Below the pieces are notes generated by a model. It did not search any database. It saw nothing but the letters and a program-made list of their open reading frames with translations, and was not told the origin of the DNA. This document shows positions 7,965 through 27,272 of a stretch of DNA of 64,000 nt, in pieces. A program made the translations under genes and the position numbers. Where the stretch lies: contig NZ_JAFKCU010000001.1 in the NCBI RefSeq assembly GCF_017254845.1, positions 641,048 through 705,047 of the forward strand, in the 5' to 3' direction. Source of the DNA: Algoriphagus pacificus. GTDB lineage: Bacteria; Bacteroidota; Bacteroidia; Cytophagales; Cyclobacteriaceae. Position 1 is the first letter of the stretch. Each line of letters begins with the position of its first letter.

Positions 7965-8075
7965 AAAAGTGGGAGCTTTGGTAGGAGTAAATTCAGATTT
8001 TCGCTTTGGGATTCCTAACTTTGAATTCTCAAATCTGTTTGCAAAAAAACAAAATTCCATCGAAACTCTCCCGAT

Positions 8076-8381: not shown

Positions 8382-8442
8382 TTTTAGAAATCAGTTTGCA
8401 GTTACACTAATAAGCCGTAGCGGACCTATCATCAATTTTTTT

Positions 8443-8500: not shown

Positions 8501-8643
8501 GATAGAGGAGTAACAAGCCTAACCCAAAACCCTAAGCGCTAAACCTTTGAGATTTTCACAGCCTCGAAGGATAATTAATTTTTAGATTTATTAACTAATT
8601 TTTTTGCAAGAGTTTAACTATTTTCCCCTTTAAACACTTTTGC

Positions 8644-9795
8644 ATGCAAAGACTTTTTTTGATTTTTTGTCTGGGTTTGTTTTTCTCTTGTGAAAACTCC
8701 AAGGAGTCCAAAAATCCAGAAAATGGAAATATTTTAGAGAATCTGACTTTTTCAGTGGATACGGTCGTGATTGATGCCGGAGAAGAGATTATCAATTTAA
8801 AAAATGGGGTTAGGCTTGCTTCTGTAAATGAAAGTAAATCCCACTTTTACCTTTTTGATGATAAAGGAAGTCAAGTTCAAAAAATCTATCTGGATAAATT
8901 GGCATGGGAAGAGAACCTCCCATTTGAAAAGGAGGGCCCAAACGGCATTGGTACTGGTCGCCACTCAAAAGTAATTGTTTACTCAGAAGAGAATTTTTTA
9001 TTTGTCAGTTTTCCTATTACAGGAATTTTTTCAAAAGAGGGTGGGCTATTAAAAGATCTAACTATTCGTTATGAAGATTTTAAAATAGAGGGTCAGGAAG
9101 AGGATGAGTCATTAAACCTAACTTCCCAACTTACGCTAGCGGATGACCAAAAAACTGCGTTTGCTCTACCTACAAATCTCCTCAAAGGCACCAGAAAATT
9201 GGTTAAACTTGACTTAGAGGATTCAACAGGAAAAATCCTTCCAATCCCAGCATTGGATATTGCATCGGAGTATCATATCATAAGACAGGTGGATGATATG
9301 GGGATGACAATTTATACAGAACCGATTCACATCCAGAAATTTGGTTCTGATGTTTATCTGCTTACTCAGTCAACGAATAAAATTTATCAATTCGATTTTC
9401 ACACAGATTCTGTCCAACTTCATGAATTTGATTTTACCATTGTTGCCAATCAAAAAGAAATCCCGGTAAAAAATAAAGTAAAAACTGAAGAGGATTTTGC
9501 TAGCCAAATTGAAAAAGCCAAATCTCAGATCAACTTCGAGAAGTTAATTTATGATGAGCAATCAGAAACTTTTTATCGATTTGGAAGAAAAAATATACCT
9601 CAGGCAAATAAAGAGGTGCAAAAAATCCAGTCTTTCCTTTTTGCTTTTGACAAAGATCTTAACCTAATCGGAGAGACAGAATTAAAAGGGCTTGAGACTT
9701 TACCCGAATCTCCCTTCTTCAAAGATGGCAAGCTTTGGTCCTATGTCAATGTAGAGGATGAGCTGGGCTTTGCAGTATTCACCTTTGATTTTTAA
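8644..9795 (+). CDS. Array lipoprotein 1 (DUF4221-like, subtype A)
   Basis: First of 16 tandem paralogues. The lipobox LFFSC puts the lipidated cysteine at residue 16, followed by a charged linker (ENSKESKNPE) of the kind seen on surface-exported Bacteroidota lipoproteins. Family landmarks are NILENLTFSVDTVVIDAGEE (29-48), EGPNGIG (97-103), YDEQSETFYRFG in the C-terminal third, and the shared 26-residue tail beginning FFKDGKLWSYVN. The repeated pattern of short beta-strand segments suggests a TolB-like propeller, which is inferred. Its closest relative by eye is copy 6. Six bases separate it from copy 2. The function is unknown. Confidence 0.85.
   Translation: MQRLFLIFCLGLFFSCENSKESKNPENGNILENLTFSVDTVVIDAGEEIINLKNGVRLASVNESKSHFYLFDDKGSQVQKIYLDKLAWEENLPFEKEGPNGIGTGRHSKVIVYSEENFLFVSFPITGIFSKEGGLLKDLTIRYEDFKIEGQEEDESLNLTSQLTLADDQKTAFALPTNLLKGTRKLVKLDLEDSTGKILPIPALDIASEYHIIRQVDDMGMTIYTEPIHIQKFGSDVYLLTQSTNKIYQFDFHTDSVQLHEFDFTIVANQKEIPVKNKVKTEEDFASQIEKAKSQINFEKLIYDEQSETFYRFGRKNIPQANKEVQKIQSFLFAFDKDLNLIGETELKGLETLPESPFFKDGKLWSYVNVEDELGFAVFTFDF
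9715..9795 (+). repeat. Shared 26-codon 3' block of the array (first of eight)
   Basis: The last 26 codons plus stop recur nearly unchanged at 10831-10911, 11987-12067, 13130-13210, 15428-15508, 16584-16664, 18885-18965 and 20028-20108. The 18-base core AAAGACGGCAAGCTCTGG is identical in six of eight copies and differs by one or two third positions in the other two (copies 1 and 4). Third positions are therefore conserved while the upstream coding sequence is strongly diverged. B-type and D-type copies lack the block. Confidence 0.8.
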
Positions 9796-9801
9796 TTAGG
9801 A

Positions 9802-10911
9802 ATGAAAAAACTCTTTCTCATTTTCCTTTTCCTTGCTTCCTGTGCGATAAAAGATCCCAAGTCTGCAGTTCAGGAAAATATTTTAGAAAATCTAACTCTT
9901 TCATTGGATACCGTAATGGTGGATTCTAAGGGAAAACTTTTTGAGTTGATCCGAGGGCCGGGATCCTCATCTATTTCTGAAGATGGGAAATACCTTTTCC
10001 TATACAATCTAATGTCTAACCAGATTCAGCAGATCAACTTAGATGAGTTGACTTGGGAACAGGATTATGATTTTGAGGTGGAGGGACCGAATGGGACAAG
10101 CGATATGGTATTAAGTACCAAAACCCTTGGCGAAGACAAATTCGTGATTACTGCTTTCAATCATATAGGGATTTATAATAAAGAAGGTGTTCGACTCAAA
10201 GACCTCTCGATTTCATCACTTCCCATTTCCACAGATTTGGATGAATTGGATTATAGTATTCTACTTTCATCAGATCAAAAAAATCTTTTTTCCTTGCCAG
10301 GAATCAGATATGTAGGTCCCAGAACATTTGCTAAAATAAATCTTCAAACCTACGAATTAGAAAATTTCCCTCTTGAAGAGATGGAATGGATTTTTGACTT
10401 GAAAATTGGAACATCCACACAGACCGTTTTTCAAGAAACCATGTATTTGAAAGAGGTAAATAATCAGGTTTTGGCTCTGAGCCCTTCGAGCAGTTCTTTT
10501 TATAGATATGATTTGAAGAATGATTCCCTTATCTATCACTCCTTTAGACATATGCTCAGTCCTGAGGTCAATGAAAACAAACTCAAACCTGTCGTAGAAT
10601 CAGACCAAGAGTACCAAGAAGAAATCAGAAAATTCTTTATGGGGATGTATTTTGGACCTCTCCTTTGGGAAGATTCAAAAAAGCTTTATTTCCGATTTGG
10701 AAGAAAACCGATATTAAGTGATGAAAATCATCAATTAATCAAAAGCGAGGTTTATCTCTATGCCTATGATCTAGAGTTCAATTTGGTAGGAGAAGCTTTA
10801 CTACCTATAACCGATCGGCCAAGCGATCCTTTCTTCAAAGACGGCAAGCTCTGGTCCTATGTCAATGTCGAAGATGAGTTGGGATTCGCAGTATTCACCT
10901 TTGATTTTTAA
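9802..10911 (+). CDS. Array lipoprotein 2 (DUF4221-like, subtype A variant)
   Basis: At 369 residues it is the shortest copy. The lipid-modified cysteine is residue 14 (FLASC). The N-terminal motif reads NILENLTLSLDTVMVDSKGK, with GK in place of the usual GEE. EGPNGTS is at 94-100. The C-terminal third has LLWEDSKKLYFRFG, the FRFG signature of subtype A. The tail is the shared FFKDGKLWSYVN block, and its first 13 codons are identical in DNA to those of copy 3. The internal loop around residues 240-260 differs from other A copies (RHMLSPEVNENK), so it may be a diverged A. Four bases separate it from copy 3. Confidence 0.84.
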   Translation: MKKLFLIFLFLASCAIKDPKSAVQENILENLTLSLDTVMVDSKGKLFELIRGPGSSSISEDGKYLFLYNLMSNQIQQINLDELTWEQDYDFEVEGPNGTSDMVLSTKTLGEDKFVITAFNHIGIYNKEGVRLKDLSISSLPISTDLDELDYSILLSSDQKNLFSLPGIRYVGPRTFAKINLQTYELENFPLEEMEWIFDLKIGTSTQTVFQETMYLKEVNNQVLALSPSSSSFYRYDLKNDSLIYHSFRHMLSPEVNENKLKPVVESDQEYQEEIRKFFMGMYFGPLLWEDSKKLYFRFGRKPILSDENHQLIKSEVYLYAYDLEFNLVGEALLPITDRPSDPFFKDGKLWSYVNVEDELGFAVFTFDF

Positions 10912-10915
10912 GGAA

Positions 10916-12067
10916 ATGAGAAAGCTTCTTACGATTTCAGCTCTTGTACTTTTAACAGCTTGTGGGGAAAAGCCCAAATCCGAGGAAGTCTTAATCATCG
11001 AGGAACCCAAGAATATCCTTGAGGACCTGACTTATGTTATTGACACGGTGGTAGTGGATTCCGGGGAAGAGTTCATTAATCTGTCCCGAGGTTTATATTT
11101 TTCAGATGTTTCAATAGACAAAAATTCACTTTTCATTTTTGATAGAGGACGCCTTTCTTTTCAAGAAGTAGATTTGGATCAAATGAAACTTCTAGGAACA
11201 TATCCATTTGAAATGGAAGGGCCTAACGGAATTGGAAAGGGCGGGATCTTTCAACTTTTACCAGATCGAAAATTAATGATTCCCAGTGTTTCAAAAACTG
11301 CCATTTATAACCTGCAAGGAGAATTAATTTCCAACTTAAAACTAATAACCGATGAGCTGGATCATATGAGCGACATCGATGAATTTACACTCCTGAATGA
11401 AATCCACTTTGATCCAAAATCTGGAGTTTTTTATTCCTTACCTGGGAATTACACTTCTGGTATTCGTGAACTAGCAATAATAAACGCTACTACCAACAAA
11501 GGGAAAGCAATCAAACTTCCTGCAATGGAAAAAGCAGGAAATTTTAGAGTGTTCTTCAATACTGAAAATGAAAAAGCCATTGAAGTGGAGGAGTACTCTC
11601 TTTCCCTATTACATGATAAAATCTATATCACTTGCACTGTAACAGGTGGAGTTTATCGCTACAACCCAGCCACAGATGATCTGGAATACATTGAATTCAA
11701 CCATCAATTAATTCCAAATGAAAAAACAGGTGATATCATCAATGAAGTGTATTCTGAAAAGGAATTCAATGCAGAATATAGAAAAGTAGCCAGTCAAGTA
11801 TCCTATCTTAAATTGATGTGGGATGACGAAACTTCCAGATTTTATCGGCTTGCATACAAAGGTGTTTTGGGTGACAAACAAATTGAACCCATTTCTTATA
11901 AGGTTTTTTTACTGGCTTATACCGAGGATATGGGATTAGTGGGAGAAGCTACAATTCCTGACTTCAATAAAGTTCCTGAAAGTTACTTCTTCAAAGACGG
12001 CAAGCTCTGGTCCTATGTCAATGTCGAGGATGAGTTGGGTTTTGCGGTATTCACTTTTAATTTTTAA
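10916..12067 (+). CDS. Array lipoprotein 3 (DUF4221-like, subtype C)
   Basis: Start taken at MRKLLTISALVLLTAC, because a longer in-frame reading would begin inside copy 2. The lipidated cysteine is residue 16. Subtype C signatures are FYRLA (instead of FRFG), YLxxG-like KIYITCTVTGGVYRYN, IYNLQGE, and FDPKSGVFYSLPGN. These match copy 10 closely and copy 7 less closely. EGPNGIGKG is present near 100. It ends with the shared 26-codon tail. No B-type copy follows it, unlike copies 7 and 10. Confidence 0.85.
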   Translation: MRKLLTISALVLLTACGEKPKSEEVLIIEEPKNILEDLTYVIDTVVVDSGEEFINLSRGLYFSDVSIDKNSLFIFDRGRLSFQEVDLDQMKLLGTYPFEMEGPNGIGKGGIFQLLPDRKLMIPSVSKTAIYNLQGELISNLKLITDELDHMSDIDEFTLLNEIHFDPKSGVFYSLPGNYTSGIRELAIINATTNKGKAIKLPAMEKAGNFRVFFNTENEKAIEVEEYSLSLLHDKIYITCTVTGGVYRYNPATDDLEYIEFNHQLIPNEKTGDIINEVYSEKEFNAEYRKVASQVSYLKLMWDDETSRFYRLAYKGVLGDKQIEPISYKVFLLAYTEDMGLVGEATIPDFNKVPESYFFKDGKLWSYVNVEDELGFAVFTFNF

Positions 12068-12073
12068 AGACCA

Positions 12074-13210
12074 ATGAAAAAACTACTTCCATTATTTAGC
12101 ATCATTATCATTACAGCTTGCAGCGAAAATGGAAATTCTGCGTCTGACAACATCCTAGAAAACCTGACATATTCTATTGACACTTTGCTAGTCGATACTG
12201 GGGATGAAATCATTGACATCGGACAGGGAGCAAGACTTTCATCTATTTCAAAAGATTCTAAGAAGTATTTTTATTATGACTTGAAAAAAGCCACTATCAG
12301 TGAAATTGATTTACAAACTCTGGAACTGAGTGATATCTATCAATTCTCCAAAGAAGGTCCCAACTCTATTGGTTTCAGTCCTCCTAGGATTCAGCCTCTA
12401 AGCAATAATAGATTTTTCTTTGCTTCCTCTGCCAATGTCGGGATTTATTCTAACACTGGAGAAAAAGAAAAAAGTCTAAAGTTCAATTTCAAAGAAATAG
12501 AAGGGCTTGATATTGATGAGGGAGGAATTATTTCTTATAAAGTTCAAATTTCTCCTGATGAGAAAACTCTTTATGCACTGACTAATCCTTATCAAACTGA
12601 CTCAGATGTCCGGCTAATGATTATTGATCCTGACTCCAAAACAGGTAGAAGCATTTCCCTTCCTTCCATGATCCCAACCTTAAAACTTAGAGTAGAGTTT
12701 CAGAAAGATGGAGATTTTAAGGGAAGAGGTGAAGGAGTTTCCATGGAGTTCCTAAATGATAAACTTTTTATTACCAGTAGTGCCAATTCCAACTCCTACA
12801 TCTATGACTATCAAACTGATTCTCTTCATTTAATCGAATTTCCTCACCAGCTTGTCGCTACTCAAAAAACAGCAGAGGTTAAAAATAAGGTTGAGGATAT
12901 AGATGAGTTTTTTGCTGAAACTGAAAAATTCAAGTATCAAGTAGGCTTTGGTGAATTTCTTTGGGATAAGCAAAGGCAGCAATATTTTAGGTTTGGTTAT
13001 CAACTGATCCCTAATGAGGATCCTAAACTGGAGAAAAAGTCAGATATCTTTCTTTTTGCCTATTACGAAAACTTAAATCTAATCGGAGAGACTCAATTAA
13101 ATAATGTCGAATACAGATTCGAAGCGCCCTTCTTCAAAGACGGCAAGCTTTGGTCCTATGTCAATGTAGAGGATGAGCTGGGCTTTGCAATTTTCACTTT
13201 TGGTTTTTAA
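12074..13210 (+). CDS. Array lipoprotein 4 (DUF4221-like, subtype A)
   Basis: 378 residues with lipobox IITAC (Cys16). It shows NILENLTYSIDTLLVDTGDE, then EGPNSIG in place of EGPNGIG. Near the C-terminus come FLWDKQRQQYFRFG and ENLNLIGETQ. GQGARLSSISKDSKKYFYY resembles copies 1 and 6, placing it in subtype A. The shared tail is present, differing from the consensus at the DNA level by CTT for CTC and by two altered residues near the end (AIFTFGF). It is directly followed by a B-type copy, so the C member of a unit may have been lost here. Confidence 0.84.
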   Translation: MKKLLPLFSIIIITACSENGNSASDNILENLTYSIDTLLVDTGDEIIDIGQGARLSSISKDSKKYFYYDLKKATISEIDLQTLELSDIYQFSKEGPNSIGFSPPRIQPLSNNRFFFASSANVGIYSNTGEKEKSLKFNFKEIEGLDIDEGGIISYKVQISPDEKTLYALTNPYQTDSDVRLMIIDPDSKTGRSISLPSMIPTLKLRVEFQKDGDFKGRGEGVSMEFLNDKLFITSSANSNSYIYDYQTDSLHLIEFPHQLVATQKTAEVKNKVEDIDEFFAETEKFKYQVGFGEFLWDKQRQQYFRFGYQLIPNEDPKLEKKSDIFLFAYYENLNLIGETQLNNVEYRFEAPFFKDGKLWSYVNVEDELGFAIFTFGF

Positions 13211-13215
13211 AAAAT

Positions 13216-14352
13216 ATGAAAAAACTCTTCGCAATTTCTATACTCATCTTACTTGGAGCCTGTAGTGGAAATGAAACCAAAAATAAAGAACAGGCAAATA
13301 TTCTCGAAAATCTTCAAATTACTGTGGACACGGTAATAGTAGATTCAGGTGAAGAAATTTTTGTTCCCAACATGTTATTTGCACAGTCTCAAAGTGTTGA
13401 TGGCAAAAGACTATTTTCCTTTTATGAACAAGATTTCGAATTTTTTGAGATTTCATTAGAGGAAATGAAGCTCCTCGATAGGCATCCATTTGAGCGGGAA
13501 GGCCCACAAAGCATCAAGGGTTGGGTAGCTAATTTTCAAATGCTAAAAGGGGATGAAATATTTCTTTATGATGAAGTCAGTCCCAATCTTTTTTCGATAG
13601 AAGGACAAAAAATTAAGTACTATGATCTGGATCTTGATGCAATTTTAAATTTCAAAACCGAGGGTCCGTTCTCTTTACCTAATGACTTTCACATCAGTCC
13701 GGACAAATCAAAGTTTGTCTTTATTCCGATGAATTTTGGGGAACCTGCTGAAGGTTTGGGAATAATCGACATTGAAAAGCAAGCCGGTGAAATACGAAAA
13801 CTTCCTGCATTGGATTTGACATTCGGTTTTCAAGTGATTTTTCAACAGGAGAATTCAGCCTCATTTTTTGGTGATAATCTCAGTCTGCAGTTAGTCAATG
13901 ATCAATTTATAATATATAGTGGTTCAACAGCAGATATCTACACCTATGATTATAAGCTAGATAGCCTAAGGCTAATCACTTTTGATCATCAGTTGGTAGA
14001 AAACAAGAAGACCGGCGAATTTGATCATGTTGCGGATTCCAGAGAAAGACAAATGGAAATTGTAGGGCAGATCAGGAAGCAAATCACTTTTCAAAAATTT
14101 TATTGGGACCCAGTCAGAAAGATGTATTTCCGGTTTGGAACTAAAAACTTTGTGATGCCAAGTAAAGATGTTAAGAGGAGTGCTGATTGCTACTTATTTG
14201 TCTTTGACGAAAACTTGAATTTAATCGGTGAAAAGTTTCTGGAGGAGTTCCAAAATATTCCCTATTCTGGCTATTTCTACCAGGGAGCATTTTATTCCTA
14301 TTCACCTGTGGGGGATGAGGCTGGGTTCACTAAGTATACTTTTAACTTTTAA
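13216..14352 (+). CDS. Array lipoprotein 5 (DUF4221-like, subtype B)
   Basis: Cys16 is in the lipobox LLGAC. Subtype B is marked by DSGEEIFVPNM near the start, GSTADIYTYDYKLDSLRL in the middle, HQLVENKKTGEF followed by DSRER, and FQKFYWDPVRKMYFRFG. EGPQSIK replaces EGPNGIG. The C-terminus lacks the shared tail and reads YQGAFYSYSPVGDEAGFTKY instead. These features are shared with copies 8 and 11. Four bases separate it from copy 6. Confidence 0.84.
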   Translation: MKKLFAISILILLGACSGNETKNKEQANILENLQITVDTVIVDSGEEIFVPNMLFAQSQSVDGKRLFSFYEQDFEFFEISLEEMKLLDRHPFEREGPQSIKGWVANFQMLKGDEIFLYDEVSPNLFSIEGQKIKYYDLDLDAILNFKTEGPFSLPNDFHISPDKSKFVFIPMNFGEPAEGLGIIDIEKQAGEIRKLPALDLTFGFQVIFQQENSASFFGDNLSLQLVNDQFIIYSGSTADIYTYDYKLDSLRLITFDHQLVENKKTGEFDHVADSRERQMEIVGQIRKQITFQKFYWDPVRKMYFRFGTKNFVMPSKDVKRSADCYLFVFDENLNLIGEKFLEEFQNIPYSGYFYQGAFYSYSPVGDEAGFTKYTFNF

Positions 14353-14356
14353 AAAC

Positions 14357-15508
14357 ATGAAAAACCTATTCCTTATTCTATTTATTTTCCTTCTCATTTC
14401 CTGCGGAGAAGATAATCCAGAGCAAAGTAGCAGCTCCAAAAATATCCTTGAAAACTTCAGCTTTACTACTGATACTTTGGTAGTAAATCCTGGAGAGGAG
14501 ATTATCAATTTATCCCAAGGGGTACGGAATAGTTCTCTAGATGAATCCAAAACCTATTTTTATCTCTTCGATCTGGCGTCAACTCAGATGAATAAAATTA
14601 ATCTAGATAAGTTAATCCTTGAGGAACAGATTCCATTCGAAAAAGAAGGACCAAATGGAATTGGGGGAAATTTCATTTCAACTGCGCGCTACCTACCTGG
14701 TGAAGAATTTATCTTTTCTAGTTTTCAAAATACAGGGGTTTTTAATAAGGAAGGTGAAAAAATAGTAGATCTCTCACTCAAACCAGATGAAATAAAAATT
14801 GAAGGTTTGAGTGAGAATGCCCAATATAATCTGACAAGCCAAATTCACATTTCATCAGATAAAAAACTGATGTATTCCACACCAAGTGATTTTATGGAAG
14901 GAGCCAATTATTTGGTAAAAATAAATCTGGAAAACAAAACTGGTAATTTGATACAAATGCCCGCCCTTGATAAAGTCGGGGAATTTAATATTGTATACGA
15001 ATTGGAGGGAGGGGTATCCGTCTATCTTGAGCAGCTTTTTTTCCAGGAAATCGAGAATAACTTTTTCCTCTCAGGAAGCACTACCAATTCTATCTACAAG
15101 TTTAAGCCAGGTCAGGATTCACTGGAACTTTTCAAATTTGATTTTTCACTAGTTCCAAATGAAAAGGAAACCCCCGTAAGAACTAAAGTCTCCAATCAGT
15201 CGGATTTCGATGCGGAAATGGAAAAAGTACGAACTCAGATTGCGTTTGATAAGCTTATTTATGATGAAAAAACTAAACGCTATTTCCGATTCGGGAGAAT
15301 TTATGAACCTCGAGAAGACAAAGAAAGCCTTTCAAAAGCCCAGGTTTTTCTATTCGCGTTTGATGAAAACCTTAATTTAATAGGAGAGACCGAAATCCCA
15401 GAATTGGATAAAGTGCCAAACAGTTCATTCTTCAAAGACGGCAAGCTCTGGACTTACGTCAATGTGGAAGATGAGCTAGGCTTTGCAGTATTCACTTTTA
15501 ACCTTTAA
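14357..15508 (+). CDS. Array lipoprotein 6 (DUF4221-like, subtype A)
   Basis: The start at MKNLFLILFIFLLISC (Cys16) follows copy 5 after 4 bases; a longer reading would run back into copy 5. It is the closest match to copy 1: INLSQGVRNSSLDESKTYFYLFD-like N-terminal repeat, LNLTSQ-like YNLTSQIHISSDKK, STTNSIYKF, LIYDEKTKRYFRFG and PFEKEGPNGIGG. The shared tail is present, with TYVN for SYVN. It begins the first complete A-C-B triplet (copies 6-8). Confidence 0.85.
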   Translation: MKNLFLILFIFLLISCGEDNPEQSSSSKNILENFSFTTDTLVVNPGEEIINLSQGVRNSSLDESKTYFYLFDLASTQMNKINLDKLILEEQIPFEKEGPNGIGGNFISTARYLPGEEFIFSSFQNTGVFNKEGEKIVDLSLKPDEIKIEGLSENAQYNLTSQIHISSDKKLMYSTPSDFMEGANYLVKINLENKTGNLIQMPALDKVGEFNIVYELEGGVSVYLEQLFFQEIENNFFLSGSTTNSIYKFKPGQDSLELFKFDFSLVPNEKETPVRTKVSNQSDFDAEMEKVRTQIAFDKLIYDEKTKRYFRFGRIYEPREDKESLSKAQVFLFAFDENLNLIGETEIPELDKVPNSSFFKDGKLWTYVNVEDELGFAVFTFNL

Positions 15509-15518
15509 ACCCTTCACC

Positions 15519-16664
15519 ATGAAAAACCTGTCAGTTTTATTTTTTATTGCTTTTCTTTTCTCCTGTTCTGGAAATGAAGAAAATAAAAGTTCCTCCTCTA
15601 CCAATATCTTTGAAGACCTGACATTTACTGTAGATACAGTGGTGATGGACGCGGGAGAGGATATTTTCAATTTGTCCATGGGAATTCGGAGTTTGGACTT
15701 ATCACCAGACGATGAATTCCTGTACTATTTTGAAAACATGCCTCCCAAACTCCTGAAAGTTGATTTGGACAATAAAAACTTGGTTAGCAAAACGGAATTT
15801 GAAGCAGAAGGTCCCAATGGGATTGGGAGTTTTGTAGGGACAATCCAAGTAGGGCCAGATGAAAAATTAGCCTTGCTAGGAAATAATGGGGTTTATGGGG
15901 TTTTTGATCAAAACGGGACAAAAATCGAAAACCTGAATAACAAACCAGAAGGGATTGATCCAACTTTGGCTGAGAACAATTTCATCTTGTATGGTAATAG
16001 CATTTATGATTGGGAAAACAGGAAGATCTATTCCTGGCCATTGGAAAATGAAACAGAAAAATCAGGTTTAGTCACAATTGATTTGGCCTCAAATTCTGCC
16101 AAAATCATTGAAGCTCCTGAACTGGAAATTGTCGATCAGTATAGTATTGCCTACGAACAAAATGGATCTTTCCGTGTATCCCCTCAGCAAGTCGAGTTGA
16201 CCCAATACGATGGAAAAATTCTGATTTCATGCTCAGCAATGGGAGATTTATATGTATTTAACCCGGTAACTGAAGAATTAAAATTTATCCAAATCGATCA
16301 TCAGTTGGTACCCAATCGATTATCAGGTGAAATAAATAATAGGCCGAATTCAGAAGAAAGCTTTATGGAAGAAATGGCCAAAGTGAATGAGCAGATTCAC
16401 TATCGACAACCGCATTGGGACCCAGAAAGAGAGATTTTTCTAAGATTAGCCACCAAAGTATTTATGCCCAAAACTCCTGAGGAGAAATATAGATATGAAT
16501 ATTTTCTGTTGGCCTATGACCAAAATTTCAAGCTTCTGGGTGAGACGAAGCTAGATCAAGAGGAAAGATTCGATTATAATATGTTCTTCAAAGACGGCAA
16601 GCTCTGGTCTTATGTCAATGTAGAGGACGATCTGGGTTTTGCGGTGTTTACGTTTGATTTTTAA
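15519..16664 (+). CDS. Array lipoprotein 7 (DUF4221-like, subtype C)
   Basis: The start at MKNLSVLFFIAFLFSC gives Cys16 and 381 residues; an upstream in-frame ATG lies within copy 6 and is rejected. Subtype C features are LISCSAMGDLYVF, HQLVPNRLSGEINN, and FLRLATK in place of FRFG. NIFEDLTFTVDTVVMDAGED and EGPNGIGSF are the family landmarks. It ends in the shared tail, with EDDLGFAV instead of EDELGFAV, a variant shared only with copy 9. It is the middle gene of an A-C-B triplet. Confidence 0.84.
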   Translation: MKNLSVLFFIAFLFSCSGNEENKSSSSTNIFEDLTFTVDTVVMDAGEDIFNLSMGIRSLDLSPDDEFLYYFENMPPKLLKVDLDNKNLVSKTEFEAEGPNGIGSFVGTIQVGPDEKLALLGNNGVYGVFDQNGTKIENLNNKPEGIDPTLAENNFILYGNSIYDWENRKIYSWPLENETEKSGLVTIDLASNSAKIIEAPELEIVDQYSIAYEQNGSFRVSPQQVELTQYDGKILISCSAMGDLYVFNPVTEELKFIQIDHQLVPNRLSGEINNRPNSEESFMEEMAKVNEQIHYRQPHWDPEREIFLRLATKVFMPKTPEEKYRYEYFLLAYDQNFKLLGETKLDQEERFDYNMFFKDGKLWSYVNVEDDLGFAVFTFDF

Positions 16665-16670
16665 ACTTTG

Positions 16671-17813: not shown

Positions 17814-17816
17814 CCT

Positions 17817-18965: not shown

Positions 18966-18971
18966 ATGTGT

Positions 18972-20108: not shown

Positions 20109-20121
20109 CCAAGTCCAACTT

Positions 20122-21252
20122 ATGAACAAATCAATTTTACTCCTTTTAGCAGTGACCCTTTTTTTGGCATGTGAGGAAAAGGAGAGCCAATCAACCTCCA
20201 ACCTTTTAGAAAATATAACCTTTACCGCTGACACAGTTTCGATAGATGTCGGAGATGAGCTTTTTAACCCTGGCTCCTATCAACATATGGATATTACTCC
20301 CGATCAGTCCAAAGGCTATTTCCTATACATGGAAATTGAAGTCCACGAAATTGACTTGGATAACATGAAGCTATTGAATCGTTTTGTCTACCAGGAAGAT
20401 GGTCCTGATGCTATTCCGAAATACCCGAACACATTTCAGGCTTTACCAAATGGAGAAGTGTTTTTGGGAGGTTTTGCTCAACAGGCTGTTTTCACCGTCT
20501 CTGGCAAAAACATTGCATCTTATAAGACCACTCCTGAAAACCTTGATGGAATCCCCAATGATGCTCCCTATTCCTTATCCAATAATATCCTGATCAGTCC
20601 AGATAAATTAACCATAGTCAGTCTTGCCGGACGTTTTGGTGAGCCATTGGAAGGGATGGCCGTGATCAATACTGCTAAAATGGAAGCCAAAATCCTCCCT
20701 TTGCCAGCACTGGACCTTACTACCAATTACCAACTGGTCTTACGGGAAGGGAATGGTGCTACTGCAGTTGGAGACTTTCAGAGAACCCAGTTTTTAAATA
20801 ATCAATTTATTGTCTACAGCGCATCTACATCCGATATCTACTCTTATGAATGGAAAACTGATTCTTTACAACTAATCAGCTTCCCGCACCAACTCGTACC
20901 ACTAAAAAAGACTGGTGAAATCTCAAACTCTGTCGATTCCAGAGAAAAACTGATAGCCGAAAGAAGGAATCTTGAAAAGCAGATCAACTTTGGTCAATTT
21001 TTTTATGATCCTGAAAAAGAAACCTATTTCAGATTCGCTAATATGAATGCTGAATATGACGATACTGGCCGTAATAAAGGATCAGATGTATACCTCTTTT
21101 CCTATGATAAAAGCTTCAATTTGACCGGTGAAAAATTATTGGAGGAGTTGGACTATCAGCCAAATCCACGATTTATGAAAGATGGAAAGTTTTATGTCTA
21201 CACTGTTCAAGGGGAAAATCCTGCATTTGTCAGATATTCAATCACTTATTAA
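20122..21252 (+). CDS. Array lipoprotein 11 (DUF4221-like, subtype B)
   Basis: 376 residues with Cys17 (LFLAC). B-type features are DVGDELFNPGS, ASTSDIYSYEW, HQLVPLKKTGEISN, DSREK, and FGQFFYDPEKETYFRFA. EDGPDAIPK replaces EGPNGIG, as in copy 8. The C-terminus (MKDGKFYVYTVQGENPAFVR) lacks the shared tail. It is the last gene of the A/B/C part. The 52-base AT-rich gap after it is the longest in the array and could hold a promoter for copies 12-16, though I find no good match to the consensus. Confidence 0.84.
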   Translation: MNKSILLLLAVTLFLACEEKESQSTSNLLENITFTADTVSIDVGDELFNPGSYQHMDITPDQSKGYFLYMEIEVHEIDLDNMKLLNRFVYQEDGPDAIPKYPNTFQALPNGEVFLGGFAQQAVFTVSGKNIASYKTTPENLDGIPNDAPYSLSNNILISPDKLTIVSLAGRFGEPLEGMAVINTAKMEAKILPLPALDLTTNYQLVLREGNGATAVGDFQRTQFLNNQFIVYSASTSDIYSYEWKTDSLQLISFPHQLVPLKKTGEISNSVDSREKLIAERRNLEKQINFGQFFYDPEKETYFRFANMNAEYDDTGRNKGSDVYLFSYDKSFNLTGEKLLEELDYQPNPRFMKDGKFYVYTVQGENPAFVRYSITY

Positions 21253-21304
21253 TTGTTGTTAAAATCATAGTTTAAACTAAAGATTTTCATATTTTTAATA
21301 GACT

Positions 21305-22465
21305 ATGAAACATCTTTTTTTAATCCTCGCTCTTTGTTCTTTTTTAATTTCCTGCTCTGAAAAGGACAAAACCAATAACTCATCATCTACCAAAGCAAGC
21401 ATTTCCTATGAGCTAGATACTGTCATGGTCGATGCTGGAGATGAGTTTATCCATGTCACCTGGCAAATGATGACTTCAGACCTCTCAAAGGATGAAAAGT
21501 ATTTATACAATTTCAAAACAGGTGCAGATAAGCCTGGTCTGGAAATCATTGACCTGGAAAACTTGAAATTGGAACGGGTAATCCCAATGAGCTTGGATGG
21601 GCCAAACAGCATCAGGCATCCTTATATTTCTGATGTCTATTCATTATCAGACGGGACATTTTATTTATCTGATAGCTATGATGTCTATCGATTTGACATG
21701 GAAGGGAACAAGCTTTCCACACTAACTTTTCGCAATCATGATTTTAAAGGAGACAAACTTCCAGAAGGGACCAGAATAGATCTGAACCAAACACTTTCAG
21801 AGGATCAAAAATCCATTCTCACCTTATATTCGGTCGAAAGATTAGTAGATCCTCCCTTAGGCTTTGCCGTGTTTGATTTAGAAAATGAATCATTCTACTA
21901 CAAACCCCTGGCTATTTTTAAGGAACTGGAAAAATACCGAATCAATCTTTATTTTAATGATAATCCTGCAGGAGCAATGTTTTCTTCCTTTCACCTGCTT
22001 GCCAAAAATGACAGCTTAATCTTTTCAAACGGAGGCGTCAACCAATTGTATTTTTATGATCTGGAGACAGATTCTTTAAGCTTCAAAAGCTACAATAGTG
22101 AATACACAACCTATGAGATAACAACAAGCTATCCCAAAAGAGTGGATAGTGAAGAGGAATATCGAGATCTGATCAAAGAGACTGATAAGGAGGTCCGCTA
22201 TGGACCTTTGTTTTATGACAGTCAAAATGAAGTTTACTGGAGGTTTACCAGTGAATTTGATCGGATGAATGGAGAAACAGCCATCTTCGATAATGTGTTA
22301 ACTGCCTTTAATCCACAATTTGAACAGTTGGGAGAAATACTGTTACAGGATGATTTCGTTTTACCATATAAAATCTTCATTAAAGACGGATTGATCTATA
22401 CTTTTCTCAATATCGATGATGAAGTAGCATTTGTACGTCTCAAACCAACCTTAACTTATGAATAA
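21305..22465 (+). CDS. Array lipoprotein 12 (DUF4221-like, subtype D)
   Basis: First of five D-type copies. It has 386 residues, with Cys17 in FLISC followed by SEKDKTNNSSS. Subtype D lacks the NILEN element and starts the domain with SYELDTVMVDAGDEF. LDGPNSIRH stands in for EGPNGIG. The C-terminal third has VYWRFTSEFDRMNGE and the ending is AFVRLKPTLTYE. The stop codon lies inside the start region of copy 13 through an 8-base overlap (ATGAATAA). Confidence 0.84.
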   Translation: MKHLFLILALCSFLISCSEKDKTNNSSSTKASISYELDTVMVDAGDEFIHVTWQMMTSDLSKDEKYLYNFKTGADKPGLEIIDLENLKLERVIPMSLDGPNSIRHPYISDVYSLSDGTFYLSDSYDVYRFDMEGNKLSTLTFRNHDFKGDKLPEGTRIDLNQTLSEDQKSILTLYSVERLVDPPLGFAVFDLENESFYYKPLAIFKELEKYRINLYFNDNPAGAMFSSFHLLAKNDSLIFSNGGVNQLYFYDLETDSLSFKSYNSEYTTYEITTSYPKRVDSEEEYRDLIKETDKEVRYGPLFYDSQNEVYWRFTSEFDRMNGETAIFDNVLTAFNPQFEQLGEILLQDDFVLPYKIFIKDGLIYTFLNIDDEVAFVRLKPTLTYE

Positions 22466-23606
22466 GTTCCTTTTGGTCTTAGCCGCATTTACATTTTTTA
22501 GTTGCTCCTCCTCAGACAAAGCAGATGAAAAATCAGATCTTGGAATGGCCTTTTCTTATGAAATGGATACTGTGCTAGTGGATTCAGGCGATCATTTCTT
22601 TTTCTTAAACTGGAGTCTAAGGATTTCAGATTTGACCCAAGACGGGAAGCTACTTTATAACTTAAATCCAGAATCGCTTCTCCTGGAAGTTATAGATATG
22701 GATGGATTGAAATTGAAAGAAACCATTCAGTTGGAAAAGGAAGGCCCCAATGGAATTGGGGGTGGTTATTTTTCCCAACTTCAGATTATAGAAAATGGGA
22801 ACTTGATGCTCTTTGGCTTCAATAAAATTGTAGAAATAAGCCCTAAAGGCGAATTGATAAAAAAATACGAATTCGATAAGACCTTATTGAGCGGGTATGA
22901 ATTTGGTGAAACTGAAATAATAGACCACTTAGGCATATTCTCCACTGATGGAAAAACCTATGTTGGTAAATTGGAAGATGAAGATTTCAGAAAACCTGCC
23001 AAAGGACTGACAGTGATTGATTTGGAAACTAAAGTAATGAAATTCGTCCCTACTGATGCCATTTCAAAGCTAAATGAATTTCAAATCATGATGGAAGTAA
23101 ACGGTAATGCGATGATGTCTCAAGATGAATTCTCTTATTTAAAATATATCAATGGGCAGTTTGTTTTAAGCAATACTGCTATGAATGAGGTCTATATCTA
23201 TGACATTGATAAGGATAGTTTGCTTCATAAGACTTTTGAAGCTAGTCTGACAGGAAATGGGCGAATCAAAAACTTTCCCACAAAAGTGGAAACAAGAGAA
23301 GCTTTTAATGAAGCTTGGAAAGAAAAAAGGAAGCAGGTATCATTTGGGCCTATGATTCCTCAAAAGGAAGAAAATCTTATTTGGAGGATCAGTACTGAAA
23401 TGGACCGTATGATCGGAGATTCAATTGTAAACAAAAATGTAGTGACTTTTTTCGATCCTGATTTTAAGATGCTGAAGGAGCAGAAATTAGAAAACTTTAC
23501 CCATTCATACTGCCTTTTTTTCAAAGATGGTATGCTTTATAATTTTTTAAATCTCGATGATGAACTCGCTTTTGTAAGACTCAAACCAACAATTACTTAT
23601 GAATAA
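22458..23606 (+). CDS. Array lipoprotein 13 (DUF4221-like, subtype D)
   Basis: 382 residues with Cys16 (TFFSC). SYEMDTVLVDSGDHFFF is near the start and EKEGPNGIGGG near 95. LIWRISTEMDRMIGDSIVNK corresponds to WRF..DRM in copy 12, and the ending AFVRLKPTITYE is typical of D. It is most similar to copy 14 (GDHFFF, EGPNGIGGG, EMDR). It begins before the stop of copy 12 and ends in the same 8-base overlap with copy 14, which suggests translation by stop-start coupling. Confidence 0.84.
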   Translation: MNKFLLVLAAFTFFSCSSSDKADEKSDLGMAFSYEMDTVLVDSGDHFFFLNWSLRISDLTQDGKLLYNLNPESLLLEVIDMDGLKLKETIQLEKEGPNGIGGGYFSQLQIIENGNLMLFGFNKIVEISPKGELIKKYEFDKTLLSGYEFGETEIIDHLGIFSTDGKTYVGKLEDEDFRKPAKGLTVIDLETKVMKFVPTDAISKLNEFQIMMEVNGNAMMSQDEFSYLKYINGQFVLSNTAMNEVYIYDIDKDSLLHKTFEASLTGNGRIKNFPTKVETREAFNEAWKEKRKQVSFGPMIPQKEENLIWRISTEMDRMIGDSIVNKNVVTFFDPDFKMLKEQKLENFTHSYCLFFKDGMLYNFLNLDDELAFVRLKPTITYE

Positions 23607-24750
23607 GAATCTAATATTTCCACTTTTTGCACTTGTGCTACTCAGTTGTTCTTCTAGAAATAGTTCAGAGGAAAATTATTCTAGTGAAAAGGACCTCTCC
23701 TATGAAATCGACACCGTGATGGTAGATCCTGGAGACCATTTCTTTTTTGTAAAATTTGGCCTAAGTATGTCGGATGTAGATGAGGCTCGGAAGCTATTTT
23801 ACAACTTTAATAGCGAGGAGATGACCATGGAAATCATCGACTTGGAAAACCTAAACTTGAAAGAGTTGAGGCAATATGAAAAAGAGGGCCCTAACGGTAT
23901 TGGAGGGGGTTTTATCATGAGGATAAAAGTACTCCCTGATGAAAGTGTCCTTTTTTATGATTTTGCAGGGATTCATCATGTCGCTCCTAATGGAGAAAAA
24001 ATAGAGACTTACAAAATCGAAGAAATGGAATGGGAAGGAGATGAGCTTTCCGAAAAACAGGTTATAAATATTTCAAGTCTGGACACCAAGGACGGTAATT
24101 ATTTTTATGGACAATATGGCACCCAAGGTATCGATAGCAAAACAGATGGTCTCGTTGAGGTCGATCTAGCAGAAAAATCTTTGAGGCTTTTCCCCTCAGA
24201 TTTTCTGGCTTTCAGTACTGATTATGATATCAGTTTTGACATGGGCGGAGGAAGAAGAGTTAAACTCCCCGAGCAGAATCTGGTAAGACTTGTAAAAGAT
24301 GAAGTAGTCATCATCACTTCTGCAAAAAACCAGCTCTGGCGATGGGATTTGGAAGGTGATAGCTTGATTAATCATTCGTACCAAAGCCAATTTACCTCAA
24401 ACAGTAAGAAGGGAAATTTCCCCGCATCAGTAGGCGAAAATGATGAATTCAGAGCTGCGATGAAAGAAAAGAGTAAAGAGGTAAATTTTGGATCTCTGAT
24501 TGAAGACTCAAAACATAATATTCTCTGGCGATACCATAAAGAAATGGACCGCTTAACTGCCGGCGATTCAATAATTTTCAAGAATGTTATAACCGCCTTC
24601 GATACTGATTTTGAGCAACTGGCAGAAAGTAGAATGCCGGATAATTTCACTATATCCAATCCCGTTTTTTCTCTGGATGGAATGCTTTGGCAGTATTTGA
24701 ATATTGATGATGAAGTTGCATTTGTACGGGTGAAACCAACCATCGAGTAA
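23599..24750 (+). CDS. Array lipoprotein 14 (DUF4221-like, subtype D)
   Basis: 383 residues, Cys17 in VLLSC. SYEIDTVMVDPGDHFFF, EKEGPNGIGGG and ILWRYHKEMDRLTAGD are present, and it ends VRVKPTIE. Its junction to copy 15 is a TAATG one-base overlap rather than the ATGAATAA form used at the other D junctions, because the TY residues before the terminal Glu are missing. Confidence 0.84.
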   Translation: MNKNLIFPLFALVLLSCSSRNSSEENYSSEKDLSYEIDTVMVDPGDHFFFVKFGLSMSDVDEARKLFYNFNSEEMTMEIIDLENLNLKELRQYEKEGPNGIGGGFIMRIKVLPDESVLFYDFAGIHHVAPNGEKIETYKIEEMEWEGDELSEKQVINISSLDTKDGNYFYGQYGTQGIDSKTDGLVEVDLAEKSLRLFPSDFLAFSTDYDISFDMGGGRRVKLPEQNLVRLVKDEVVIITSAKNQLWRWDLEGDSLINHSYQSQFTSNSKKGNFPASVGENDEFRAAMKEKSKEVNFGSLIEDSKHNILWRYHKEMDRLTAGDSIIFKNVITAFDTDFEQLAESRMPDNFTISNPVFSLDGMLWQYLNIDDEVAFVRVKPTIE

Positions 24751-25928
24751 TGAGCCGACTACCTTTTCTTTTTTTCCTATCCCTGATCATCAGTTGCTCA
24801 CCAAAAAAGGAAAAGGTAGAAGTAGTGCCCAAAACATTTACCAATCATACATTCGAATACACTCTGGACACAGTTTTTATCGATTCGGGAGACTCCATGC
24901 CCTACCTCGATATGAATTTGGTTTCTTCGGATTATGTGTCCTCAGAAGGATTGCTATATAATTTGGATCCTGGAACAGGCCGGGTAGATGTCTATGACAT
25001 TGATGCCCAAAAGCTGAAAAAACACATTCAGTTTGAGGTGCGTGGCCCAAATGGAATCAGGAAGTATTTCCCAACCGGGATCAAAAAAACCAATAATGGT
25101 GACTTGATAATCAGAGATTATTTCGAAGTGCTCAGAATGGGAGAGGACACCAAATTGAAAGATTCCTATCAACTTCTAAATCATAAACTTGATGGAGATA
25201 ATCTCGGTGAAAGCCAAGAGATCAATGGCATGGGTGAAATCTCGAACGATGGATCCTATTTCGCCAGTTATTATGGTTACTACCCATCCAATGGACGTAT
25301 TCTCGGTTTGGCAAAAGTAGATTTAACATCCAAATCCCTGAAATTGATCCCAGTGAGTTTTAGAGATCAATCGGAAAGGTTTTTGATCCGCTGGGAATAT
25401 CGAGAGGGGAAAACGATGGTAGTTCCAGAATACAAATTTCTAACACTCGATGGTCCCAACCTTATCGCCTCCAATTCCTACAAAAATGAACTCTGGTACT
25501 ATGATGCTGCAAAAGATTCCCTTTATCACAGAATTTATCAAAGCAGTCTGATCTCCAATGTCAAAAAAGGCAACTTTGGGAAGAGGGTTGGATCAATGCA
25601 GGATTTAAATAGTGCCAAAAAAAGGAAATTTCAAGAAGTCGTCTTTAGCCCCATCATCAAGGACCCAAAAAATAAACGTTTCTATCGCTATAGTAGAGAA
25701 GTCCAGCAAGAGCCTGAGCAAGGAGGCAGATATTTTAGATTTGTTTTGTCAGTATTTGATGCAAACCTTAGGATCATCCATGAAGAAAAACTAGATCTAT
25801 CAGCTTTTATACCTGGAGAATATTCCGTCAATAAGACCTTCGTCCACAAAGGTATGCTGTATACATTTTTGAATTTAAGAAATCAGATCGCCTTTGTCCG
25901 GCTTAAACCAAGTGTTACTTATGAGTAA
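24750..25928 (+). CDS. Array lipoprotein 15 (DUF4221-like, subtype D)
   Basis: At 392 residues it is the longest copy. The start MSRLPFLFFLSLIISC gives Cys16, followed by a lysine-rich linker (SPKKEKVEVV) unlike the acidic linkers of most other copies. EYTLDTVFIDSGDSMPYLDM opens the domain. VRGPNGIRK replaces EGPNGIG. RFYRYSREVQQEPEQGG is its version of the WR motif. The ending AFVRLKPSVTYE keeps the D tail and overlaps copy 16 by 8 bases. Confidence 0.83.
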   Translation: MSRLPFLFFLSLIISCSPKKEKVEVVPKTFTNHTFEYTLDTVFIDSGDSMPYLDMNLVSSDYVSSEGLLYNLDPGTGRVDVYDIDAQKLKKHIQFEVRGPNGIRKYFPTGIKKTNNGDLIIRDYFEVLRMGEDTKLKDSYQLLNHKLDGDNLGESQEINGMGEISNDGSYFASYYGYYPSNGRILGLAKVDLTSKSLKLIPVSFRDQSERFLIRWEYREGKTMVVPEYKFLTLDGPNLIASNSYKNELWYYDAAKDSLYHRIYQSSLISNVKKGNFGKRVGSMQDLNSAKKRKFQEVVFSPIIKDPKNKRFYRYSREVQQEPEQGGRYFRFVLSVFDANLRIIHEEKLDLSAFIPGEYSVNKTFVHKGMLYTFLNLRNQIAFVRLKPSVTYE

Positions 25929-27063
25929 ATACTTTTTTTTATTTTGTTTCTTACTTACTCTAGGTTGTTCCACAAAGGAAAATTCTAACGATTCGGGCAA
26001 AAATCCTGTCAAACTTTCCTATGAAATTGACACAGTTCAAATTGACTCGGGAGATGAGTTTCTGTTTTTAAAATATGATCTTCTTGATTCTGATCTCTCA
26101 AAAGATGGAAAATTATTCCTAAATGTTGACCAATTATCCAATCAAATAGAAATCATTGATCTTGAGAACCAGAGATTAATAGAGAAAATCCCATTCGAAA
26201 GAGAGGGACCAAATGGAGTTGGACCAGAGCATATTTCAAATTTTCAACTCTTGGAGAATGGAAATCTTTGCTTCTCTAATATTCATAAATTGACCATTCT
26301 AACTCCAGAACTCAAAATGGCTTCCAGCCAGTATTTTTATCCTGAATCATTCGAAGGTGATTCTCTTCCCGAAAAAGCAGAAATCCCAACGTTCTACGGA
26401 CAATTAAATAGTGATGGGTCAAAATTTGTTGGGTTTTACGATCTGTTTTGGGAAAACGAAATACTTGGAATAGCTATAATAGATCTTAAAACCGATCACC
26501 TGGATTTGATTCCCAATGATAAACTGGACTATTTAAAAGAATTGATTTATACCACTGTTTTTGAAAATGGCTCAAAAATTACTACCGGAGATGCCAAGTA
26601 TATAGATTACTTTGGAAATAAACTGATTATCAGTACCTCTGCCAAAAACGAGCTAGTGATCTATGATATGGAAAAAGATAGTCTTTGGACCAAATCATAC
26701 CAAAGTAAATTCACTTCAGATCTAAAAAAAGGGAGTTATAAAACTGAATCAAATTCTGATTTGGCATTGAAAATAAAAGACCAGGAAGTCTATTTTAATC
26801 ATCTGGTATATGATACTGAATCAGAACTTTTTTGGCGTTATAGCAGGGAATCCAAGTCCAACAATCCAGAATTTCCCGATTTCATATATGTTCTCACAGC
26901 ATTTGACAAAGAGCTGAATCAAATTCACGAGGAAAAATTGGATGTAGATTGGACACATAAACCCTCAATCAAGTTTATCAAAGATGGGATGCTATACACC
27001 TATATCAACCTAGAAGATGAATTGGGATTCCTGAGATTGAAACCGAAGCTAGAAAATGACTAA
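25921..27063 (+). CDS. Array lipoprotein 16 (DUF4221-like, subtype D), last copy
   Basis: 380 residues from MSKYFFLFCFLLTLGC (Cys16). The start ATG lies in the ATGAGTAA overlap with copy 15; a longer in-frame reading back into copy 15 is rejected. SYEIDTVQIDSGDEF, EREGPNGVGP and LFWRYSRESKSNNPEF are present. The tail reads EDELGFLRLKPKLEND, so its VNLEDELGF-like part is closer to the A/C tail than the other D copies are. It ends the array; degenerate intergenic repeats follow. Confidence 0.84.
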   Translation: MSKYFFLFCFLLTLGCSTKENSNDSGKNPVKLSYEIDTVQIDSGDEFLFLKYDLLDSDLSKDGKLFLNVDQLSNQIEIIDLENQRLIEKIPFEREGPNGVGPEHISNFQLLENGNLCFSNIHKLTILTPELKMASSQYFYPESFEGDSLPEKAEIPTFYGQLNSDGSKFVGFYDLFWENEILGIAIIDLKTDHLDLIPNDKLDYLKELIYTTVFENGSKITTGDAKYIDYFGNKLIISTSAKNELVIYDMEKDSLWTKSYQSKFTSDLKKGSYKTESNSDLALKIKDQEVYFNHLVYDTESELFWRYSRESKSNNPEFPDFIYVLTAFDKELNQIHEEKLDVDWTHKPSIKFIKDGMLYTYINLEDELGFLRLKPKLEND

Positions 27064-27076
27064 TGAAGATTTCCTT

Positions 27077-27150: not shown

Positions 27151-27252
27151 ATAGGTGATTTCTCCTTGGGATCGAAATGCCCTAAAAGAAATTCTGATTT
27201 ACTGGTCACTGAGACTGCCCACTGATTACTCTTTCGAGCTTTTTCACTTTAT

Positions 27253-27272
27253 CCTTCTGACTTCTGACCTTC
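27253..27272. repeat. Short CTTCTGAC direct repeats
   Basis: Consecutive CTTCTGA/CTTCTGACC units lie between the lipoprotein array and the TRIC gene. A comparable CAGTATTCAGTTGTCAGTG tract lies at 27880-27898, on the other side of that gene and at the end of the methyltransferase gene. Both resemble simple intergenic tracts common in Bacteroidota. Confidence 0.35.

Follow-up and report, generated by a model that had tools for sequence, protein, structure and literature searches.

Why should a marine bacterium keep sixteen paralogous lipoprotein genes of a single family in tandem, when to our knowledge that family, DUF4221, has no known function? The question is raised by the DUF4221 array of Algoriphagus pacificus (Bacteroidota, Cyclobacteriaceae), which lies in a stretch of 64,000 nucleotides called the window below (contig NZ_JAFKCU010000001.1 of assembly GCF_017254845.1, positions 641,048 to 705,047 of the forward strand; all coordinates are those of the window). 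The explanation that best accounts for our comparison of related genomes, and that we regard as fairly probable as a whole, combines this comparison with inference: the locus would be a recombining array of cassettes, each encoding a lipidated DUF4221 protein. A full-text search of the literature for DUF4221 returned no paper, and searches of titles and abstract openings returned no account of this array, in both cases within the collection that could be searched.

The array and its repertoire

The initial annotation, made from the sequence alone, had described sixteen tandem lipoprotein genes on one strand and had guessed that they belong to DUF4221. Re-reading of the open reading frames (ORFs) confirmed the description: positions 8644-27063 of the + strand hold 16 ORFs of 369-392 amino acids (aa), in each of which the lipobox cysteine is residue 14-17, and all 16 copies have a start, a lipobox and a full frame. 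The guess proved right in a profile search, where 16 of 16 proteins match PF13970 (DUF4221) with E-values from 9e-71 to 2.3e-46 and 159-240 bits, above the curated Pfam cut-off of 23.4 bits. The matches cover the profile from positions 2-8 through 310-311. Apart from one weak match below the cut-off, DUF4221 is the sole Pfam family in the members, and an NCBIfam profile search with three of them gave no match. The genes are listed here with their C-terminal block types; nine such types were obtained for all arrays compared by clustering the last codons at 50% identity, a threshold of our choice.

8644..9795, + strand: array gene 1, DUF4221 lipoprotein, block type A
9802..10911, + strand: array gene 2, DUF4221 lipoprotein, block type A
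10916..12067, + strand: array gene 3, DUF4221 lipoprotein, block type A; core common to gene 4 of genome G070
12074..13210, + strand: array gene 4, DUF4221 lipoprotein, block type A
13216..14352, + strand: array gene 5, DUF4221 lipoprotein, block type F
14357..15508, + strand: array gene 6, DUF4221 lipoprotein, block type A
15519..16664, + strand: array gene 7, DUF4221 lipoprotein, block type A; reference for residue numbering
16671..17813, + strand: array gene 8, DUF4221 lipoprotein, block type C
17817..18965, + strand: array gene 9, DUF4221 lipoprotein, block type A
18972..20108, + strand: array gene 10, DUF4221 lipoprotein, block type A
20122..21252, + strand: array gene 11, DUF4221 lipoprotein, block type D; closes the 5' zone and precedes the sole larger gap (52 nt)
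21305..22465, + strand: array gene 12, DUF4221 lipoprotein, block type B; opens the 3' zone
22458..23606, + strand: array gene 13, DUF4221 lipoprotein, block type B
23599..24750, + strand: array gene 14, DUF4221 lipoprotein, block type B
24750..25928, + strand: array gene 15, DUF4221 lipoprotein, block type E
25921..27063, + strand: array gene 16, DUF4221 lipoprotein, block type B

Counted from the ATG nearest the lipobox, the spacings between genes 1 to 12 are 6, 4, 6, 5, 4, 10, 6, 3, 6, 13 and 52 nucleotides (nt), and genes 12 to 16 overlap consecutively by 8, 8, 1 and 8 nt; the single gap of 52 nt reported earlier thus stands, whereas the gaps of 0-13 nt reported for all other junctions do not, given these four overlaps. 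Of the two motifs named in the same annotation, xDTVxVDxGEE is real, and EGPNGIG is real but loose, being better written as [EDR]GP[NQD]. The alignment of the 16 members has ten invariant columns, among them D39, T40, G98 and P99. By their divergence the sixteen genes are old paralogs: pairwise protein identity is 18-53%, and DNA identity within three sub-groups is 34-65% per window of 24 codons, with the last window of the largest group (85%) as the exception. The whole genome holds 21 DUF4221 matches, 16 in the array and five scattered; PF17170, a lipoprotein-containing family used as a yardstick in the same genome, has nine matches, all scattered. Inspection of the five solitary DUF4221 loci by eye found no partner gene common to them. 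Three of the solitary genes (L060, L062 and L064), also judged by eye, lie near other predicted lipoproteins.

We compared the array with 20 relatives, which were picked from genomes with high-ranking DUF4221 matches, so that array sizes lean large. All 20 carry a tandem array of 6-23 ORFs (split genes count twice). Arrays in four single-contig genomes (15 ORFs in G022, 12 in G057, 11 in G014 and 6 in G039) exclude, at the species level, an assembly artefact or a set of scattered single copies. By its flanks the array site is one fixed chromosomal site: the upstream flank has the same carotenoid genes in all 21 genomes (the window included), and the downstream flank has glycine-transporter, methyltransferase and patatin genes in 14 and another shared set in six, G007 being different. 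The site is also occupied in one more genome of the genus, G051, by six members.

DUF4221 is present in 51 of 73 genomes of the genus (our own included) and in 47 of the 51 with at least 90% completeness and at most 5% contamination; copy counts per genome are lower bounds, as the best 26 candidates were scored in the genus and the best ten in the family. The four high-quality genomes without a match include G018, G031 and G033, which are 99-100% complete. In G053 about 0.9 kb separates the two flanking genes; the site is empty, and at least four members are found elsewhere in the genome. Given this empty site and the high-quality genomes without a match, the array can be absent and is dispensable. 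Across the family, matches occur in 81 of 196 genomes and in 35 of 76 genera. Among 15 genomes of other genera, several have looser arrays with other genes interspersed, and in G143 and G186 a gene pair adjoins these same downstream genes. When species genomes were scanned with two conserved C-terminal peptides, 57 loci were found in Algoriphagus, Cyclobacterium, Aquiflexum, Cognataquiflexum, Lunatimonas and other Cyclobacteriaceae; the loci closest to gene 7 are all from Algoriphagus.

The arrays of the 21 genomes comprise 250 ORFs, of which 233 with 350-410 aa were used for sequence groups, block types, selection and gene ends and 17 were left out. Single linkage at 60% identity, again a threshold of our choice, placed the 233 genes in 101 groups; 51 of these are confined to one genome and none is found in more than nine of the 21. 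The accumulation curve is still climbing, by about 2.5 new groups per genome, and in this sample the repertoire of sequence types is open. Only five of the 16 window genes have the adjacent gene as their best paralog, and for each of the 16 a match better than this paralog exists in at least three other species. A tandem array at a fixed site, with variable gene number and patchy orthology, has the features of the PFam54 type, as a kind of array and not as a protein family.

Probable exchange of gene bodies between species

We compared 110 interspecies pairs of array genes with more than 72% aa identity, picked for this high identity, against a background of about 12 kb on each side of the array. 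In 69 of them the synonymous difference (dS) is at least 0.1 below that of the flanking genes of the same two genomes. Examples are G016_14/G022_15 (99% aa identity, dS 0.02), G016_04/G022_07 (98%, dS 0.05) and window gene 3/G070_04 (83%, dS 0.28), all with synonymously saturated flanks; dS is 0.74 for window gene 14/G026_13 and 0.61 for window gene 15/G016_13. Flanking genes that are 71-99% identical, among the 45 of the 110 pairs listed, are as alike in protein and have no low dS except in close species. By this comparison single genes have crossed between species, too recently for the divergence seen in the flanks.

Similar tracts of DNA were compared as well. Of ten genome pairs with tracts of at least 88% nt identity, seven have an array more alike than the flanks, for example G016/G022 (37% vs 3%) and G070/window (9% vs 0%), and array and flanks were rated equal in one (G001/G028, 74% vs 71%); in G016/G022 one such tract reaches into part of the downstream flank. 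With a criterion of at least 82% identity over at least 400 bp, 51 tracts were found in 26 genome pairs, 38 of them about one gene long, six two genes, two three genes and five less than half a gene. Most starts (46 of 51) and ends (48 of 51) fall between genes or within the first 15% or last 10% of a gene; a uniform distribution would put about 13 of 51 there. Gene 3 and G070_04 are 91% identical over nucleotides 96-1149, with less similar ends and unlike neighbours; identity along this pair is 42-68% at nt 10-130, 78-100% through the body and 55% past the stop.

In all 21 arrays type A blocks occupy the 5' part and type B blocks the 3' part, and single genes deviate from this order in G013, G021, G022 and G026; the first gene is of type F, C or D in ten arrays and the last of type E or G in eleven. 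The order in the window is AAAAFAACAADBBBEB. A motif near the 5' end tracks the block type: of 112 type A genes 85 encode N-I-L-E-N-L or a variant of it, of 70 type B genes none does. The type A block is exemplified by the following feature.

9715..9792, + strand: type A 3' block of gene 1 (last 26 codons before the stop)

The block stands at the same place in genes 2, 3, 4, 6, 7, 9 and 10, and the last 24 columns of these eight type A genes are 90% identical in aa; that of gene 3 recurs with 83-95% nt identity in the majority of short matches listed for the genus. Conservation among the members is highest in these last columns and in the N-motif, and the middle varies.

Ends and cores were also compared in 44 disjoint ortholog pairs (more than 75% aa identity, dS below 0.6, more than five nonsynonymous differences). 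The core has a mean dS of 0.337, as against 0.437 for the first 36 codons and 0.451 for the last 25. Of the 44 pairs, 30 have a higher value at the 3' end than in the core (p 0.0016) and 26 at the 5' end (p 0.013); amino-acid change is greater at the 5' end in 39, and the block type is identical within every pair. In type A genes with unlike cores, conserved sites have the same codon at a rate of 0.71 within a genome and 0.63 between genomes in the block, and 0.41 in the core; the within-genome excess of the block was reached by none of 500 label shuffles. The codon and end data fit crossover and homogenisation at the gene ends.

We also determined the ratio of non-synonymous to synonymous change (omega), which is 0.142 over 34 disjoint pairs. 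By windows, it is 0.27-0.38 before residue 37 and 0.05-0.17 everywhere from there on. In the flanks omega is 0.034-0.055 where flank dS is finite (among the 45 of the 110 pairs listed); a median flank omega of 0 results from saturation and was not used. Because 0.142 stands against 0.034-0.055, the bodies are estimated to evolve roughly three times faster than their neighbours, yet under constraint. On the low and even omega, hypervariable patches and overall positive selection were rejected. Judged from these ratios and the exchanges, diversity comes from retaining and trading old versions and not from hypermutation. The initial annotation had spoken of selection for diversity; this is supported in the sense of an open repertoire shared by species through gain, loss and exchange, and fails in the sense of hypermutability.

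Of the 250 array ORFs, 240 have at least 340 aa; the ten below that length include eight that form four adjacent split pairs. The adjacent part-length ORFs suggest one split DUF4221 gene each in G039 (L058-L059), G069 (L028-L029), G013 (L024-L025) and G026 (L040-L041).

Likely fold, proposed mechanism and possible roles

A lipoprotein signal with a lipobox cysteine was found in all 16 window proteins and in 242 of the 250 array ORFs, and 214 of these 242 have D or E at positions +2 to +6 behind the lipid-bearing cysteine; the commonest residues are G or S at +2, E at +3, K at +4 and then E. We know of no surface lipoprotein export signal for Cyclobacteriaceae. For other Bacteroidota the signals QKDDE, SDDDD and SDDFE have been published (PMC5080379), and the residues of the array appear near to these, yet not the same. 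In a search of PDB the family profile aligns on two stretches with the solved protein 3s9j, no other chain in the results being named DUF4221, and the profile repeats itself at an offset of about 100 columns. It also matches the small PF17170 profile weakly (E 4.3e-5), four unrelated profiles giving 0.05 or worse. The Pfam clan of DUF4221 presumably has the beta-propeller fold, and this fold is likely for the members. The last blade of most propellers is completed by the first strand, and the two semi-conserved ends of the array proteins may be that closing blade.

The explanation that we prefer, a recombining cassette array, would then work as follows. On the comparison, it is on average the protein body that is exchanged, and the lipoprotein leader and the last approximately 25 codons remain with the recipient; homologous recombination between semi-conserved gene ends would be the mechanism. 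All members would be made at once from a conserved leader as one operon. They would be outer-membrane beta-propellers, the first and last strands of which close the same blade, and swapping the interior would swap the binding face with the closure kept constant.

Several observations weigh against this explanation or parts of it. Lowered synonymous difference is missing in 41 of the 110 interspecies pairs, chosen as they were for high identity, and in two of the ten genome pairs the array is less alike than the flanks (G012/G024, 15% vs 68%; G049/G072, 23% vs 47%). Since the gene ends are conserved anyway, tract ends at gene ends do not prove crossovers there. The 3' end is not more divergent than the core in 14 of the 44 ortholog pairs, nor the 5' end in 18, the codon excess varies along the type A block, being strong at residues 357-366 and 376-381 and weak at 367-375, and the excess in type B is weak (0.51 vs 0.42 expected); part of the block likeness may therefore reflect a constraint on DNA or RNA. 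The omega windows have no patch of excess amino-acid change, the trace that an arms race might leave. As to the fold, 3s9j is followed in the PDB search by leucine-rich repeat proteins, designed as well as natural (E 5e-5 and worse), about equal to the PF17170 match, and hmmsearch of the family profile against PF17170 proteins gave no match. Finally, terminator-like hairpins are in excess (29 vs 16.0 in shuffles, standard deviation 4.0; positions 8200-27400, both strands), which speaks against a simple single operon; by coordinates these sites lie inside genes, the stretch being nearly all coding.

What the proteins bind is a separate matter. It is quite possible, if still somewhat doubtful, that each member binds a different ligand and that the ligands are variable and biotic (competitor proteins, phages, bacteriocins or other cells); such ligands are favoured because partners of this kind best explain why many versions are kept together and traded. 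The broadest form of this idea seems rather unlikely to us: Cyclobacteriaceae would share a library of outer-membrane recognition proteins, 6-23 of them displayed at once from one operon and traded via constant closing-blade ends, which would serve as a recognition or immune repertoire at the population level against phages, bacteriocins and rivals, without hypermutation or host immunity as the driver.

The reading with biotic partners has two close rivals, nutrient capture and orphan immunity. According to the first, which we hold to be unlikely, surface proteins would bind different substrates and be exchanged between species as substrates change, in the manner of BtuG and XusB of Bacteroides, surface lipoproteins with a beta-propeller fold that bind vitamin B12 and siderophores (PMC10404256, PMC13142918). 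The purifying selection on the members agrees with such a role. BtuG and XusB are, however, tied to a transporter, and none of the window genes scanned with Pfam, 9 upstream and 10 downstream, encodes a TonB-dependent receptor. The scan covers window genes; the upstream flank is the same in 21 of 21 genomes and the downstream flank is as in the window in 14, the alternative downstream sets of relatives lying outside the scan.

Immunity, the second rival, is a narrower form of the explanation that we prefer and is also improbable in our estimate. Here the array would be a set of outer-membrane orphan immunity proteins directed against toxins or against the use of receptors by competitors and phages. 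In being open, exchanged and free of a fixed partner, the repertoire is similar to the orphan immunity arrays of gut Bacteroidales (PMC12247911), and no partner gene was found to travel with the array across the regions compared in the 21 genomes. Against it, the same scan of 19 window neighbours found no toxin or recombinase gene, PADLOC gave a match for one member (E 0.0099) and none for the other 15 at E 0.01, no member has a PHROG match, and no positive selection was seen. Gene 7, the sole member tried, has no relative in phage or plasmid records; on this and on the constant upstream flank, cargo of a mobile element was rejected.

Somewhat less likely still is plain birth-and-death, that is, unequal crossing over, neutral turnover and ordinary transfer, with diversity that has no special role. 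The range of copy number (6-23), the low and even omega, the empty site in G053 and the absence of a match from four of 51 high-quality genomes are all in keeping with it. Neutral duplicates would decay, however, and yet nearly all ORFs are of full or almost full length; the adjacent gene is seldom the best paralog, better matches being held by other species; and the tracts are mostly whole genes.

Antigenic or phase variation, proposed in the initial annotation as a phase-variable coat, could take the form of one expressed copy with a store of variants or of on-off switching, and the exchange of cassettes does resemble known variation systems. Positions 8381-27100 contain no homopolymer of nine or more A/T or eight or more G/C and no dinucleotide run of six or more, and the nine tandem repeats in the array are weak, with at most 3.1 copies. 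A 17-nt inverted repeat (88%) at 8509-8525 and 8807-8823 brackets the leader and the start of gene 1, and a pair of this kind occurs in 14 of 200 random controls. With no simple-sequence tracts, an inverted repeat within chance, no recombinase among the neighbours scanned and almost all copies intact, the proposal fares badly and variation of either form is very improbable; switching by an invertible promoter or simple-sequence tract was rejected on the repeats, and silent cassettes with incomplete donor copies are improbable given the completeness of the ORFs.

By analogy, the array stands closest to two known systems, PFam54 of Borrelia and the lpl cluster of staphylococci. PFam54 is a head-to-tail array of 6-11 paralogous lipoprotein genes on lp54 (PMC11389397) and shares with the present locus a single array at a fixed place, a variable part without one-to-one orthology, duplications, losses and some interspecies exchange. 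It differs in its protein family, in its location on a plasmid of a tick-borne pathogen and in that one studied member inhibits host complement; many pseudogenes and few clear transfers between species are reported for it, whereas here nearly all ORFs are intact and interspecies exchange is frequent. The lpl cluster (nuSa-alpha) also consists of tandem paralogous lipoproteins, an operon of ten with a conserved segment thought to promote shuffling (PMC4470592). In lpl, according to that source, the middle is conserved (92%) and the flanking parts are variable, whereas here the ends are the more conserved and the middle varies; moreover, lpl belongs to an unrelated family on a genomic island of a Gram-positive organism.

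BtuG and XusB are Bacteroidota lipoproteins as well, with the propeller fold that is suspected here, but each works with a TonB-dependent transporter, they belong to other families (DUF4374 for XusB), and the accounts consulted describe no arrays (PMC10404256, PMC13142918). The rAID arrays of gut Bacteroidales consist of diverged protective genes without a toxin partner; as far as the source describes them, they are associated with a recombinase and encode immunity domains such as SUKH (PMC12247911), in contrast to the one lipoprotein family found here with no recombinase among the neighbours scanned.

The array makes DUF4221 testable, as it offers a fixed locus, an open set of shared versions, semi-constant ends that indicate where to cut and, as controls, species that naturally have no array. 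Should phages or toxins be its targets, the repertoire would form a defence layer outside the two catalogues searched, PADLOC and PHROGs; if it binds nutrients, it would represent diversity of capture without an adjoining transporter gene. Either way, it looks like frequent interspecies exchange of gene bodies in non-pathogens.

Leader, neighbours and elements within the arrays

The array is preceded by a conserved leader and enclosed by the following features.

7296..8153, - strand: carotenoid biosynthesis protein (cluster 4), the constant 5' neighbour, next to the array in 21 of 21 genomes
8574..8643, + strand: leader directly upstream of the array, found by sequence comparison, with TTAACTA-N16-TTAACTA at 8591-8620
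27272..27874, - strand: usual 3' neighbour, glycine-transporter family protein (cluster 11), within the nearest eight genes in 14 of 21 genomes

The 70-nt leader is 70-77% identical in five of the 20 relatives (G016, G022, G039, G043 and G057) and 36-57% in the other 15, as computed without gaps; two control stretches further upstream are only 16-39% identical. Leaders fall into three classes, the two further ones serving most of the remaining arrays (L020-L059). The TTAACTA pair, 23 nt apart, occurs once in the genome, and a reversed control pattern three times. In the second class TAGNTTTWTAG occurs twice, 22 nt apart; this pair is found once, right before the array, in three of six genomes searched, and its control had no match. 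The tight spacing of the genes and the conserved leader suggest that they form one operon read from the leader. Paired direct repeats 22-23 nt apart in two of the three leader classes are a candidate for a dedicated operator, and their spacing is reminiscent of the sites of LytTR regulators. Promoter patterns were rejected as evidence: 45 sigma-70-like promoters were found in the region with 53.7 expected by chance, and a Bacteroidetes-type pattern has five matches in the window with 4.85 expected, none of them in the leader.

Between the carotenoid gene and the array, all 20 relatives have a small gene of about 101 aa (cluster 9), the window counterpart of which is an ORF at 8076-8381 (+ strand) that overlaps the long start of the carotenoid ORF. 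The array of G071 is interrupted by 4.3 kb with three genes. This insert (L026-L027) consists of clusters 27-29, of about 450, 530 and 286 aa, and lies before the last array member; in five other genomes these clusters are found downstream of cluster 11.

Two recurrent elements were seen within the arrays. Variants of TTGGCTTTATGGATTTTTGACTTTAATTTTTAG directly precede a late array gene in G070, G071, G039, G057, G021 and G043 and may be a second promoter; the gene that follows is of type E in five of these genomes and unclassified in G039. An element of about 98-122 nt with AAATCGAGC...GCGAGATTC is common to gaps in the otherwise tight arrays of G071 (after gene 1), G014 (after gene 5) and G026 (after gene 8).

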